A stretch of 64,000 nucleotides of DNA from Utricularia gibba (lineage: Eukaryota; Streptophyta; Magnoliopsida; Lamiales; Lentibulariaceae): the NCBI GenBank assembly GCA_002189035.1, contig NEEC01000013.1, positions 2,046,001 through 2,110,000 on the forward strand, given 5' to 3'. The notes below the pieces were generated by a model. It was not told where the DNA came from. It did no database searches and was given only the letters and a program-made list of their open reading frames with translations. This document shows, one piece after another, positions 2,095-19,827 of the stretch. The translations under genes and the position numbers were made by a program. Numbering within the stretch: the stretch's first letter is position 1; every line of letters begins with the position of its first letter.

Positions 2095-4263
2095 ATGGGT
2101 GCGACGGGTTCGAAGCTGGAGAAAGCGTTGGGCGACCAATTTCCGGAGGGCGAGCGCTACTTTGGACTAGAGAATTTTGGAAACACGTGTTACTGCAACA
2201 GCGTTCTTCAGGTTTTCTTGATTGTTGAGTTATTTTGGATTATGTTGTTGGCACCGATCTTGCTCCTTTAATTCCCATCTGCTTGGGCGTATCTTGACTA
2301 GCACGAGAGGGATTTTGCTTCCATATGTAATGGCTATTTATTCATGCTTAATAGCTGATCGCCAAAGGGTGTCTTTTTCCAGAATTTTGGAGTTTATGAA
2401 GTTCCGTTAATGTCATTCTCGGTTACATGATAGTTTCACAAATTAATGCTAATGAGTATATGGGTAGCTAGATAGTGGTTTTGGTAAAATGTGTTACCTG
2501 ATAGCCCTGCTCGTCATATCTAGATAGTGGTTTTCTGGCACCTTATTGTTCTGGTCTGTTTGTATTCTTCCCTGAAATTAGTTGTATTCATCGACTTTTT
2601 TGTACCTTGGATGCGAATTATTTTCATTATTGTATTCTTATCGAATTCAACATTGTTCCTCCTCTTGATGCTTGTTCCTCTTTTAATCTTCTTATTTCCA
2701 AAATAACAATGAAAGACTTCTCTGTTAAATTGAGATAATAACATTAAAATTTTCTACCTTTTTAAGGCACTATATTTCTGCGTTCCATTTCGGGAACAGT
2801 TGCTGGAGTACTATTCAACTAACAAGGGTCCTAGTGACGCAGAAGAAAACCTGTTAGCATGCTTAGCAGACTTGTTTTTGCAGGTATTTTTTTGTTGAAT
2901 AATACGTTTTTTAAGGTACCAACCTATGAAGTGAGAGCATTCTCTAGCCTGTGTATTTACCCACGGCTGTTTGTGAACATTCGTTGCCTGGTTATTGGTG
3001 TATTTATTCCTGATTTTTTTGTAGATTAGTACACAGAAGAAGAAAACTGGTGTTCTTGCTCCAAAACGTTTTGTACAGCGCCTGAGGAAGCAAAATGAGA
3101 TTTTTCGCAGTTACATGCACCAGGTTTGCCATTGATCCTACTGAAGAAACATATTTTAACGCACTTCGTGAATTCTGTCTTTGCATCTGTCTGGAAGAGG
3201 CATCCGTGCTGTTTTTAGCTAGTAGATCTCCAGTGATTTTATTTCTTTTTAAAAGCGTAATGTGTTGAGATATTTGCAGGATGCTCACGAGTTCTTGAAT
3301 TACTTACTGAATGAGCTTGTCGACATAGTGGAGAAAGAAGCTGGAGCTGTCAAGAGTGATCAAGAAACTTCTCAAAATATTGCCAATGGGCCGAAAAATG
3401 GAATATCCAATGGCCATCATAAGGAGCCCCTTATTACCTGGGTGCACAAGAGTTTCCAGGTGAGTTGGGTTAGCCAGTTTGCATTTCTACTTGGCATTTT
3501 TTAAATTGGCTGTCGTTTTTGTCATTTCACTTGCATATTTATCATGTTGCGCAGGGATTATTGACAAATGAAACAAGATGCTTGTGCTGTGAAACAGTGA
3601 CAGCACGAGACGAAACATTTCTTGACTTGAGCCTCGATATTGAGCAAAATAGTTCAATTACCAGTTGTCTTAAAAACTTCAGCTCCACTGAAACATTGAA
3701 TGCTGAGGACAAATTCTTCTGTGACAAATGCTGCAGGTGAGTCTTGTTTCAGTTGCATTAGGATGTTATTTTGTCATATAAGCTGTGCCAATCTTGTCTT
3801 TATTAGACTGAAATCACTTGCAAGTTCACAGAGAGTGAGAACTATTGTTGAACCCAGCTTGCAGGAGGCCCAAAAGAGAATGAAGATCAAAAGGCCACCC
3901 CAAATCCTGGTCATACATTTGAAACGATTCAAGTACATAGAACAGCTGGGGCGCTATAAGAAACTCTCCTACCGTGTTGTATTTCCTATGGAGCTAAAAC
4001 TCAGTAACACAGTTGAAGATGCGGATGCTGAGTACTCCTTGTTTGCTGTTGTTGTCCATGTGGGAAGCGGACCCAACCATGGTCACTACGTCAGCCTTGT
4101 AAAGAGCCACAACCACTGGTTATTTTTTGATGACGAAAACGTTGAGATGATTGACGAATCAGCCGTTCAAACATTCTTTGGGTCATCCCAGGAGTACTCC
4201 AGTAACACAGATCATGGCTACATCTTGCTCTACGAAAGGCTTGTTGCCAGTACCAGCTCATGA
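2095..4263 (+). CDS. UBP3: Ubiquitin carboxyl-terminal hydrolase UBP3/UBP4 type
   Basis: Cysteine deubiquitinase of the small USP12/46-like class, known in Arabidopsis as UBP3 and UBP4 (nuclear; needed redundantly for pollen). Exons 2095-2211, 2767-2883, 3025-3123, 3280-3459, 3555-3736 and 3858-4263 give a 366-residue protein; the family is about 370. It starts [20 protein letters not shown], with a Gly2 that could be myristoylated. The Cys box is [12 protein letters not shown] (Cys32 catalytic); the motif [16 protein letters not shown] spans the exon 3/4 junction; the zinc ribbon is RCLCCET...FFCDKCC; the His box is [14 protein letters not shown], followed by [11 protein letters not shown]. 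The C-terminal third is one exon. All catalytic elements are intact. UBP3 versus UBP4 cannot be told apart. Confidence 0.97.
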
Positions 4264-4695: not shown

Positions 4696-6270
<1,575 letters not shown>

Positions 6271-6786
6271 TCACTTCTTCTTCGGGCTCTTTCCAGGCTT
6301 GCTTCGCGCATGGACCTCCTTCCTGTGGGTACGACGGGGCTTAAGTTCTCCCAGCTTATGTCCCACCATATTCTCGATAATACGAAAAGGAACATGCTTT
6401 CTTCCATCATAGACAGCGATTTGAAGCCCAACCATATCAGGGATGATTGTCGAACCCCTCGACCATGTCTTGATCAATTCCTTCCTCCCAGTAGACTTGA
6501 GTTCCTTGATTTTCTTGATCAAGTGGTTAGCCACGAAAGGAAGTCTCCAGCTCGTGCCACCACCACGGAGGCGGAGGAGAAGGTGAAGAGTCGATTCCTT
6601 CTGAATGTTGTAATCAGACAACGTCCTCCCGTGCTCCAGCTGCTTCCCAGCGAAGATCAGCCTCTGTTGGTCCGTCGGAATTCCTTCTTTGTCCTGAATC
6701 ATCAGCTTCGCATTGTCGACCGTATCCGAGCTTTCGACTTCCAGGGTAATTGTTTTTTCCCTCAGGGTTTTCACATAGATTTGCAT
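6271..6786 (-). CDS. Ubiquitin fused to organelle/bacterial-type ribosomal protein uS19
   Basis: One uninterrupted 171-codon frame. Residues 1-76 are a diverged ubiquitin (starts [20 protein letters not shown], ends [10 protein letters not shown]; Lys48 kept in FAGKQLE; about a dozen changes from canonical, including I44 region [13 protein letters not shown]). The diglycine is followed at once by [17 protein letters not shown], and residues 77-171 are a uS19 of plastid/bacterial type: [33 protein letters not shown], then a basic tail ending SPKKK. Cytosolic uS19 (RPS15) has a quite different sequence. Established ubiquitin-ribosomal fusions carry eS31 or eL40; I know of none with uS19. Cleavage after Gly76 would release a 95-residue uS19 without a transit peptide, unless the upstream exon described separately is joined on. 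Whether it serves plastid, mitochondrial or cytosolic ribosomes is open. Confidence 0.9.
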
Positions 6787-7312
6787 TCTTTTCTCCTTGG
6801 CAAGGCAACCGAACTGCGTTGCTTTTGTAATCCCTCTTATTTTCTGCGTAGGCCTTGTCTCCTATGGAGATTTGAGCCTGTGCCCAGCTCCCATACCACG
6901 AGTTTCACTGTAATCAGAAATCAACCACGCTAAACACAACCAGTCCAAGATACAAAAAGGGCATTGAATATACTAGAAGCAGATACAAAAAAAAAAAAAA
7001 GCAAACATTCAGAAGACCGGCGAGCAGGCGAAGGATTTCAAGGTGAGATAGCAACAAGCTACTGCCTATCGATCCAGAAAAACAACGACTCAACACCCTT
7101 TTGTGGCGAAATCTCCAAATACTCGATCGCGAAGATGTAATTTCCCGAGAAAACCACAAACAAGCAACATTTATCTCATAAAATCAAGCGAAACCATAAG
7201 AAAACAGAAAATCAAACATACCCCACGGCGGAACGGAGATGACTCAACGGGGAGGATCAGCCGCCGACTCCACATACAAAGCTCTGCATTTCTAACAGAA
7301 GGCAATTTATAG
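6787..7312 (-). other. Leader region with probable intron of the Ub-uS19 gene
   Basis: Reading leftward on the minus strand there is a likely first exon ending at 7222 with a good donor (ggg|gtatgt). Candidate acceptors are at 6912 (ttacag), 6862 (ccatag) and about 6850 (acgcag). If the first is used, the leader is non-coding apart from short upstream ORFs. If either of the last two is used, an ATG at 7275 (MWSRRLILPVESSPFRRG) runs in phase into the ubiquitin start. 5' UTR introns are common in ubiquitin-extension genes. Not decided from sequence alone. Confidence 0.5.
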
Positions 7313-7426
7313 TACAGATATTTGGGCGGATTAGTCATTCACTTGCGGAAGCCCGAACACAGGCCCAATAAATTGGCGAAAGCCCATGAACTATTCAATC
7401 TCGGGAAGCCCGAAGAAGAAGGCCCA
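7305..7426 (-). promoter_or_regulatory. TATA box and Site II elements of the Ub-uS19 promoter
   Basis: A minus-strand TATAAAT lies at 7305-7311. Upstream are three Site II elements of the TGGGCY class (7362-7367, 7381-7386, 7421-7426 as GGCCCA/AGCCCA on the + strand). Site II elements are typical of plant ribosomal-protein and organelle-biogenesis genes, which fits the product. Confidence 0.65.
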
Positions 7427-17875: not shown

Positions 17876-18347
17876 TCAAGAAACACTGCAAAAAAAACAA
17901 AGGATGCTATTCAGGCAATGTGATGTGATGATAATATTTCGGGTGACTTTGGAATGAGTGATTCTGTGTGTGTGATTTGTGGGGCAATGGATCGTACGTG
18001 TTGCAGTTGACTCTGGGGTTGATGGCGTAGCCGACGCGGACGCCGCAGGCAGCCGGAATCCGAGAGGCCTTGCCAAGGGCGCCGGGGTTGTTGCCGTACG
18101 CGGCGGAGGCGCTTTTCAGGCACCCGCAAATGGTACGACGGGCCGGGGTGGTGGCGGCGAGTGTGTTCAACGTCCTGACTCCGCTGCAGCATGGCTTCGG
18201 AATCGCGGAGTCCGAACCGAGAGCGTAGCTGATGCAGGGAGACAGGTTTTTCAGCACATCGCCGCAGGTGACGGCGGACGCCACCGGGGCGAAGATCAGA
18301 GCAGTGGCGATGAGGGCGAAGAAGAGAGACCTCACCAGGGCGGCCAT
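17876..18347 (-). CDS. Type-1 non-specific lipid transfer protein
   Basis: Intact nsLTP1 of 119 residues. Exon 1 (17998-18347) starts MAALVRSLFFALIATALIF, a signal peptide cleaved near VASAVTCG. The eight cysteines are in the family order: VTCGDV, LSPCISYA, PKPCCSGVR, TICGCLK, IPAACGV, VNCN. Exon 2 (17876-17885) is ten bases and gives the last residues TVS-stop; donor ac|gtacga, acceptor tttttttgcag. The intron position and phase are the same as in the two neighbouring copies. A minus-strand TATATAAA lies at 18397-18404. The protein is secreted and expected to carry lipids for cutin, wax or defence functions. Confidence 0.95.
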
Positions 18348-19388
18348 TGAAGCTCTTTTCTTTTTTTCAGTGAAGTCCACTCCATCACTACAGGTGTTTA
18401 TATAGAATCGCATCGGTGGTGCAGCGCAATCAATTGATAGGCACAGGTGTCGGCTACGGGCGGTTGGAGGATGGAGCCGCCGTAAATGCTCGAGAATTAC
18501 GTTACGGCAAACTATTCCAACTTCCCATAAAACAGATGACGAATTTCAACCTCGTTTTGATCACTCTGTCTTAAACACACATTCAGAGCCAGTTTGAAAA
18601 AGGGCTTGCTGATCCAGATCAGTAACCACTTAGTTTGCTCATGTTGGGGCTAAAAATGATCAAACAGGTAAAGTTGTAGAAATTGCGGTTTCGATTTCAA
18701 TTCAATTCTGAAATATGAATAATTGTACTCTTTCGAAATGTTTAGAGATATTTGAAATCGGGAAACCGCACTTTAAAATCAATGATAATCGAAAGTTCTC
18801 TCAATTTCGTTTTTAAATAACTAACACACTGTGTTATGGTTAGAGGTGCAATCCATTTCAAATCGTACGGTTTCGGTTTCGGTTTGGAATTGCATGGTTT
18901 AACCGAACCATCGATTCATGAACCATGATTCGATGTGGACCATGATTTTTCTTTTGGTTTGAAATTGTATTCTGAAATCTGGAATCGAACGTATGGATGT
19001 TCACATCTTGGAACCAAAACCGTCGGTTTCGATTTCGAACCGATAGCTTCACCCCACTTTCTATTCACTTGGGCTTTGTGGGGAGTGGGCTTTGTGAATG
19101 AGAAGGTTTGCCCCCACATATACATAGGACATGTCGTGTAGGGAGGCGGCTAATGAGTAAAACGACTTCACATGTGTGTGCAGGGGGTGAATGTCATGTG
19201 CTATAAATCCGGACACATTACATTCGTAACTCCAACATAGTACAATACAAACATGATGAGAAAGCAGACACACGGATAACTGATGCATCTCAATCTGAGC
19301 TCCCGCTCCCTTTATTGTAGTCTGATACCATTTCCTTCCACCAGATGAAGATTCCGGCGAAGCCCCACCGTGCTACCTCATCTCCGGT
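18348..19388. other. Intergenic between the second and third nsLTP genes
   Basis: Holds the promoter of the second nsLTP at its left end, then non-coding sequence. A short degenerate run of GGTTTC repeats (near 18868-18886) is followed by many matches to cggtttcga/aaccgaa, which suggests old repeat sequence. No gene called. Confidence 0.45.
18397..18404 (-). promoter_or_regulatory. TATA box of the second nsLTP gene
   Basis: TATATAAA on the minus strand, 50 bp before the start codon at 18347. The third nsLTP gene has the same octamer at a similar distance. Confidence 0.6.
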
Positions 19389-19827
19389 TCAATAAATACT
19401 AGACAAAAAGAAACACAGGGAGCAATTAGTGGTTTGCAGAAATGAAAATGAAGTCTGATGATATTTCCCTGTACCTGTTGCAGTTGACGTTGGGGCTAAT
19501 CGAGTACCGAACGCTGACGCCGCAGAAGCTGGGAATACGGGAGGCCTTGTAAAGGTAGGCAGGGTTGCCGCCGCGGGATCCCGACAGAGATTTCAAGCAG
19601 CTGCAAATGGAGCGCCGGTCGGCCGTCGTCGCGGCGAGTGCGTTGAGGCTCCTCACGCCGCTGCAGCAGGCTGGGGGGATAACCGGAGATGAACCTAGAG
19701 CGTAGGCGAAGCACGACCCCAGACTCGAAACCACCTGCCCGCAGGTGACCACAGCCGACGCCGTCGGTGCCGAGACGATGGCGGCGGCGGCGAGGGCGAT
19801 GAAAAAGAACTTGAAAACGGCGGCCAT
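19389..19827 (-). CDS. Type-1 non-specific lipid transfer protein
   Basis: nsLTP1 of about 120 residues. Exon 1 (19475-19827) starts MAAVFKFFFIALAAAAIVSA, a signal peptide, followed by VVTCGQVVSSLGSCFAYALG, PPACCSGVRSLNA, SICSCLKSLSG, IPSFCGVSVRYS and NVNCN, with all eight cysteines. Without splicing the frame would run on to a tail unlike the family. The donor ag|gtacag and acceptor ttgtctag give a ten-base last exon (19389-19398) ending SIY-stop, in the same position and phase as its neighbours. The second and third copies are more alike to each other (ALGS...IP motif) than to the first. TATATAAA lies at 19900-19907 (-). Confidence 0.92.

Follow-up and report, generated by a model that had tools for sequence, protein, structure and literature searches.

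A nuclear fusion of ubiquitin with a bacterial/organelle-type uS19 in Utricularia gibba and its possible role in the mitochondrial ribosome

A 64,000-nucleotide stretch of the Utricularia gibba genome (the window; C375:2046001-2110000 of an assembly of 100.09 Mb in 516 contigs) carries, on its minus strand, a single open frame without introns in which ubiquitin is joined to a complete bacterial/organelle-type ribosomal protein uS19 (Table 1). We consider it probable, at roughly 0.58, that this gene supplies the uS19 of the mitochondrial ribosome after decay of rps19 in the mitochondrial DNA, with ubiquitin serving as a cleavable leader. This reading is preferred because the mitochondrial rps19 is broken, the readable assembly yielded no other organelle-type uS19, and the plastid rps19 is kept in Utricularia reniformis. 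Organelle genes that relocate to the nucleus are considered to require a promoter and, in most cases, a targeting peptide. If the proposal is correct, a ubiquitin leader would represent a way for the gene of an organelle ribosomal protein to become nuclear, and fusions of ubiquitin with ribosomal proteins would extend from cytosolic to organelle ribosomes. Lamiales mitochondria that have lost their own gene must import uS19, and the fusion is a specific candidate for this protein.

Table 1. Features of the ubiquitin-uS19 locus, in positions of the window
Feature	Position	Strand	Description	Basis
Ubiquitin-uS19 coding sequence	6271..6786	minus	171 codons plus stop TGA (6271-6273)	ORF reading, profile matches
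Ubiquitin part	6559..6786	minus	76 codons, ending in LRLRGG	
uS19 part	6274..6558	minus	95 codons, from GTSWRLPFV to the C-terminus (residues 77-171)	
Predicted 5' UTR intron	6908..7221	minus	donor GTATGT at 7221, acceptor TTTCTGATTACAG ending at 6908	by-eye reading
TATA-like box	7305..7311	minus	TATAAAT	consensus only
Three site II elements	7362..7426	minus (gene's strand)	TGGGCC, TGGGCT, TGGGCC within 65 bp	
Candidate poly(A) signal	6141..6146	minus	AATAAA, about 125 bp past the stop codon	consensus only

The fusion frame and its two domains

An earlier note on this DNA had described a nuclear fusion of ubiquitin with an organelle/bacterial-type uS19. This observation is confirmed: the frame is exact, every motif quoted in the note (LRLRGG and MVGHKLGE among them) is found in it, and both halves are recognised by profile models. 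Residues 3-74 match the Pfam ubiquitin model PF00240 with 91.8 bits (cut-off 25.4) and residues 80-156 match the Pfam model Ribosomal_S19 (PF00203) with 98.4 bits (cut-off 27), and these scores exclude a chance match. The fusion also reaches 101.4 bits with the NCBIfam equivalog model rpsS_bact (TIGR01050; cut-off 89.35) and scores far under the cut-off of the NCBIfam models for archaeal-type uS19, which rules out a cytosolic uS19 identity for the second half. Indeed, the second half is only 33% identical to the four cytosolic-type uS19 loci of the same genome. With a complete N-terminal ubiquitin followed in frame by uS19, the gene belongs among the ubiquitin-ribosomal protein fusions, and its second half is confirmed as a complete uS19 of bacterial/organelle type. 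The earlier reading of the fusion as a whole is partly supported.

An AlphaFold2 model, built on a shallow alignment of 8 rows, contains two confidently folded domains (residues 1-73 and about 83-149) separated by a disordered linker (residues 74-82) and followed by a C-terminal tail that is disordered as well. The first domain overlays on ubiquitin structure 1ubq at 0.9 Å. The pTM of 0.44 is expected, because the two domains are loosely connected.

A diverged but constrained ubiquitin

The ubiquitin half carries 11 substitutions in 76 residues relative to canonical plant ubiquitin (F4Y, T9R, G10E, I23V, V26A, A28L, K29M, P38T, D52H, A57S and V70L), whereas the protein is invariant in the other ubiquitin copies of the genome. 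Lysines K6, K11, K27, K33, K48 and K63 are unchanged. Recognition by deubiquitinases usually needs I44, H68, R72, R74 and the LRLRGG terminus, all of which are retained. When the ubiquitin half is compared with 22 canonical units from elsewhere in the genome, synonymous sites are saturated (pS 0.70-0.97). Even the nearest unit shows 36.5 differences over 51.5 synonymous sites, compared with 12.5 over 176.5 nonsynonymous sites, for a w of about 0.03. The divergence claimed in the earlier note therefore stands, with the addition that the sequence is still constrained. This pattern indicates that the fusion ubiquitin is under purifying selection but no longer as strictly conserved as the other copies are.

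The combination of saturated synonymous sites and small amino-acid change implies that the fusion is old and constrained and is not an assembly join. The junction sits within a single 3.2-Mb contig, which, together with the synonymous divergence, rules out an assembly chimera.

Genomic setting and flanking signals

The locus is the sole one of its kind in the 100-Mb assembly, which also contains four canonical Ub-eS31 loci. On C412, C508, C213 and C1:6606785, several ubiquitin matches are split in two (about residues 1-35 and 27-76), which suggests ubiquitin genes with introns, perhaps Ub-eL40. A RAB6/RABH1-like GTPase gene (Pfam Ras; about 4700-5835, minus strand) follows the fusion directly and in the same orientation. 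A multi-exon gene for a ubiquitin-specific protease (2097-4263, plus strand; Pfam UCH, 132 bits) lies about 2 kb from the fusion, a nearness that is probably coincidental. Farther along the window, two adjacent lipid-transfer-protein-like genes on the minus strand (17907-18413 and 19426-19827) are probable tandem duplicates.

The earlier note had invoked site II promoter elements and the capture of a ubiquitin promoter. Three site II hexamers are indeed present upstream on the gene's strand, although across the window as a whole TGGGCY is about as frequent as chance predicts, and for this reason their clustering and common orientation alone are suggestive. The second claim is not borne out. 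The 914 bp upstream of the fusion show no significant similarity to any ubiquitin locus of the same genome, and promoter capture from a ubiquitin paralogue was rejected on this basis.

The state of organellar rps19

The mitochondrial contig C515 (267.5 kb) contains cox1 in two open stretches, rps3 and rpl16, and the plastid contig C516 (172 kb) contains an intact rbcL. About 15 C-terminal codons of rps19 are left in C515, directly upstream of rps3 and with an in-frame stop. This remnant reads K*RPSSIGPGRKKGNK (C515:255,879-255,926; the asterisk is the stop) and matches the C-terminus of plant mitochondrial uS19, while no recognisable uS19 was found before it upstream of rps3 in C515. The first exon of rps3 starts at C515:255,944 and rpl16 comes after rps3. 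The broken stub is new in this analysis, and it bears out the loss of an organellar rps19 that the earlier note had raised. A second mitochondrial copy could lie in the parts of C515 that read N.

Searching the assembly with PF00203 gave five places, namely the four cytosolic-type uS19 loci and the fusion. Approximate plant mitochondrial and plastid uS19 queries returned the fusion first, followed only by the cytosolic-type loci and one weak match. No second organelle-type uS19 was found in the readable assembly, in which C516 is masked from 95,001 (just beyond rpl16), a part that includes the plastid rps19 region, and parts of C515 are N. In U. reniformis, rps19 is a pseudogene in the mitochondrial DNA (PMC5516982) and is retained in the plastome (PMC5072713). 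Boea and Mimulus, which also belong to the Lamiales, share the loss of rps19 from mitochondrial DNA (PMC4045975). A long open rps3 frame is present in a nuclear copy of plastid rpl22-rps3 at C402:1634090-1637338, where the sequence towards rps19 is masked.

Origin of the uS19 half

The earlier note had taken the second half to be a transferred plant rps19, a claim that the identities over residues 7-79 of uS19 fail to uphold. Values are 36-42% for plant mitochondrial proteins (28/67 for the Brassicaceae protein of 6xyw and 25/70 for a tobacco-like sequence) and 56% for spinach plastid uS19 (41/73), equal to those for algal and liverwort plastids. Among bacteria, identity is 0.48-0.53 for alphaproteobacteria, 0.59 on average for cyanobacteria, 46/73 for Thermus and up to 50/73 (68%) for the nearest of the 79 bacteria compared. 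The argument is carried by sequences from PDB entries and fetched loci; the tobacco-like mitochondrial sequence, that of the liverwort plastid and one from an angiosperm plastid are approximate.

The phylogeny that the note had proposed was computed, together with AU tests, and favours no donor. In a tree of 66 rows, the fusion sits on a long branch near Omnitrophota and Planctomycetes with unconvincing support, and the AU tests reject neither its union with plastids (p 0.70), with plant mitochondrial sequences (p 0.65) nor with spinach alone (p 0.34). A reduced tree of 44 rows, from which the other long rows were left out, gives p values of 0.27 for plastids and 0.20 for spinach alone. Pairwise likelihoods place every donor near saturation.

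Acquisition of the uS19 half from a bacterium by horizontal transfer, instead of from the plant's own organelle, appears doubtful. The best matches are bacterial, the plastid state is present at only 4 of the 21 sites where spinach plastid uS19 differs from cyanobacteria, and the reduced tree supports a clade of cyanobacteria and plastids (97/96) with the fusion outside it. However, the nearest among many bacteria is a biased best, the fusion falls in no bacterial clade with starred support, and a plastid origin passes the AU tests on both trees. The same bacterial likeness is also produced by simulation from spinach uS19 when each site is limited to residues found in the uS19 family (P 0.69), which unconstrained simulation never achieves. 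Because the site-constrained simulation fits, recent derivation from the angiosperm plastid gene is kept in play.

The sequence PFVANHL is common to the fusion and, among the compared rows, to angiosperm plastid uS19 only, and none of the compared bacteria has its N at residue 11. By its sequence, the motif would favour a plastid source. It makes recent derivation from an angiosperm plastid gene tempting, but the fusion is no more similar to angiosperm plastid uS19 than to the uS19 of other plastids. PFVANHL is also near the bacterial PFVDDHL and has two acidic residues fewer, a loss that might fit selection for import.

A plain transfer of rps19 from mitochondrion to nucleus followed by ubiquitin capture, which is the commonest known route, is unlikely here. 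Such an origin would agree with the loss of rps19 from the mitochondrial DNA and with the AU result for plant mitochondrial sequences, and the N-terminal W-[KR]-x-P-F-V and long basic tail of the fusion recall plant mitochondrial uS19. Against it stand the low identity to these proteins and the absence from the fusion of plant mitochondrial stretches such as VRIYNGK and KITEGKVGHKFGE. Tentatively, and with a likelihood somewhat short of even, a ubiquitin gene of an ancestral plant within Lamiales may have picked up a uS19 gene of bacterial or plastid origin, whose product, delivered as a ubiquitin fusion and lacking a presequence, may have replaced the mitochondrial uS19.

Proposed role of the fusion protein

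If the fusion supplies mitoribosomal uS19, a plant promoter would drive transcription of this old nuclear gene to yield a ubiquitin-uS19 precursor. Cytosolic deubiquitinases would then cut past LRLRGG and free uS19, making ubiquitin an expression or folding leader that is taken off before import. The released uS19 would be imported into the mitochondrion by its own basic, acid-poor N-terminal region and would assemble into the mitoribosome, replacing the uS19 once encoded by the decayed gene. We infer expression, cleavage, mitochondrial import and mitoribosome incorporation of the product.

Since the added ubiquitin would be removed by deubiquitinases, targeting must reside in uS19 itself. Some transferred mitochondrial genes are known whose products are imported without a presequence (PMC4045975). 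The proposal is favoured by the presence of two complete domains, which fold separately in the model on either side of a flexible junction. The predicted N-terminus of cleaved uS19 has a net charge of +7 in 35 residues with the first acidic residue at position 19, whereas that of the uncleaved fusion has a net charge of -2. However, the amphipathicity of this region is not exceptional relative to shuffles (P 0.13) and bacterial uS19 N-termini are basic too, both of which count against the proposal.

The product might instead serve the plastid, with the nuclear fusion replacing a lost or weakened plastid rps19. The distribution of PFVANHL would suit this role, but it is distinctly unlikely: rps19 is annotated in the plastome of U. 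reniformis (PMC5072713), the fusion has no transit peptide ahead of uS19, and the broken mitochondrial rps19 would be left without a visible replacement. It is also quite improbable that ubiquitin stays attached or that, having diverged, it performs a separate function, such as tagging for degradation or the quality control of uS19 that has not been imported. The 11 substitutions, including K29M, in a genome whose other copies are invariant would be explained in this way, but the LRLRGG terminus, I44, H68, R72 and R74 are intact and the P1' residue is Gly. Moreover, removal of ubiquitin is the rule in known ubiquitin-ribosomal protein fusions, except in Giardia (PMC6721733). A dead or dispensable old fusion is very improbable given the full open frame, the low amino-acid change in a ubiquitin half saturated at synonymous sites, the conserved core residues of uS19, and the promoter-like and splice-like signals.

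Relation to known fusions and transferred genes

It should be kept in mind that eS19 and uS19 are different proteins. Ubiquitin fusion partners are almost always eS31 or eL40 (PMC8122580, PMC6721733). Like Ub-eS31 (RPS27a) and Ub-eL40, the present gene has a lone N-terminal ubiquitin with the ribosomal protein joined after LRLRGG. Unlike them, it has a ubiquitin with 11 diverged sites, where theirs has none, and its partner is uS19; it is therefore a variant and not a member of the Ub-eS31/Ub-eL40 class. Fusions of ubiquitin to other ribosomal proteins are anecdotal and comprise eS8, eS19, uL1 and eL41 in a Pfam survey (PMC8122580) and P1/P2 in Bigelowiella (PMC6332867). In contrast to the present case, uS19 and organelle ribosomal proteins are unnamed in the main texts of both papers. 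An earlier database record of ubiquitin with PF00203 is possible. The algal ubiquitin-NiSOD fusion, reported to be absent from land plants, likewise places ubiquitin on a bacterial-type protein, although NiSOD is an enzyme and not a ribosomal protein (PMC6332867). The reviews consulted list neither a ubiquitin-uS19 fusion nor ubiquitin on an organelle ribosomal protein, and no description of the latter was found in the literature searched, which mostly excluded subscription papers.

The nuclear rps19 genes of Arabidopsis (AT5G47320), grasses, Apiaceae and Silene resemble the fusion in being nuclear after loss from mitochondrial DNA, and they are presented as mitochondrial-derived (PMC13308715, PMC7145533, PMC10728875). 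They differ in that the Brassicaceae uS19 of 6xyw, the sole such sequence compared, is clearly of mitochondrial type, that the Apiaceae copies have predicted presequences, and that none is reported with ubiquitin. Plastid-like proteins have taken over from mitochondrial ones in the cases of rps13, rpl10 and, in Silene, rpl16 (PMC13308715). In these examples, as proposed for the fusion, a protein not of mitochondrial type acts in the mitoribosome, but they have no ubiquitin and their plastid affiliation is stated as clear. Among the loci examined in a scan of viral contigs, only relatives of ubiquitin were seen, and one IMG/VR contig classed as viral encodes, at 1405-1731, a ubiquitin that follows a signal-peptide-like stretch.
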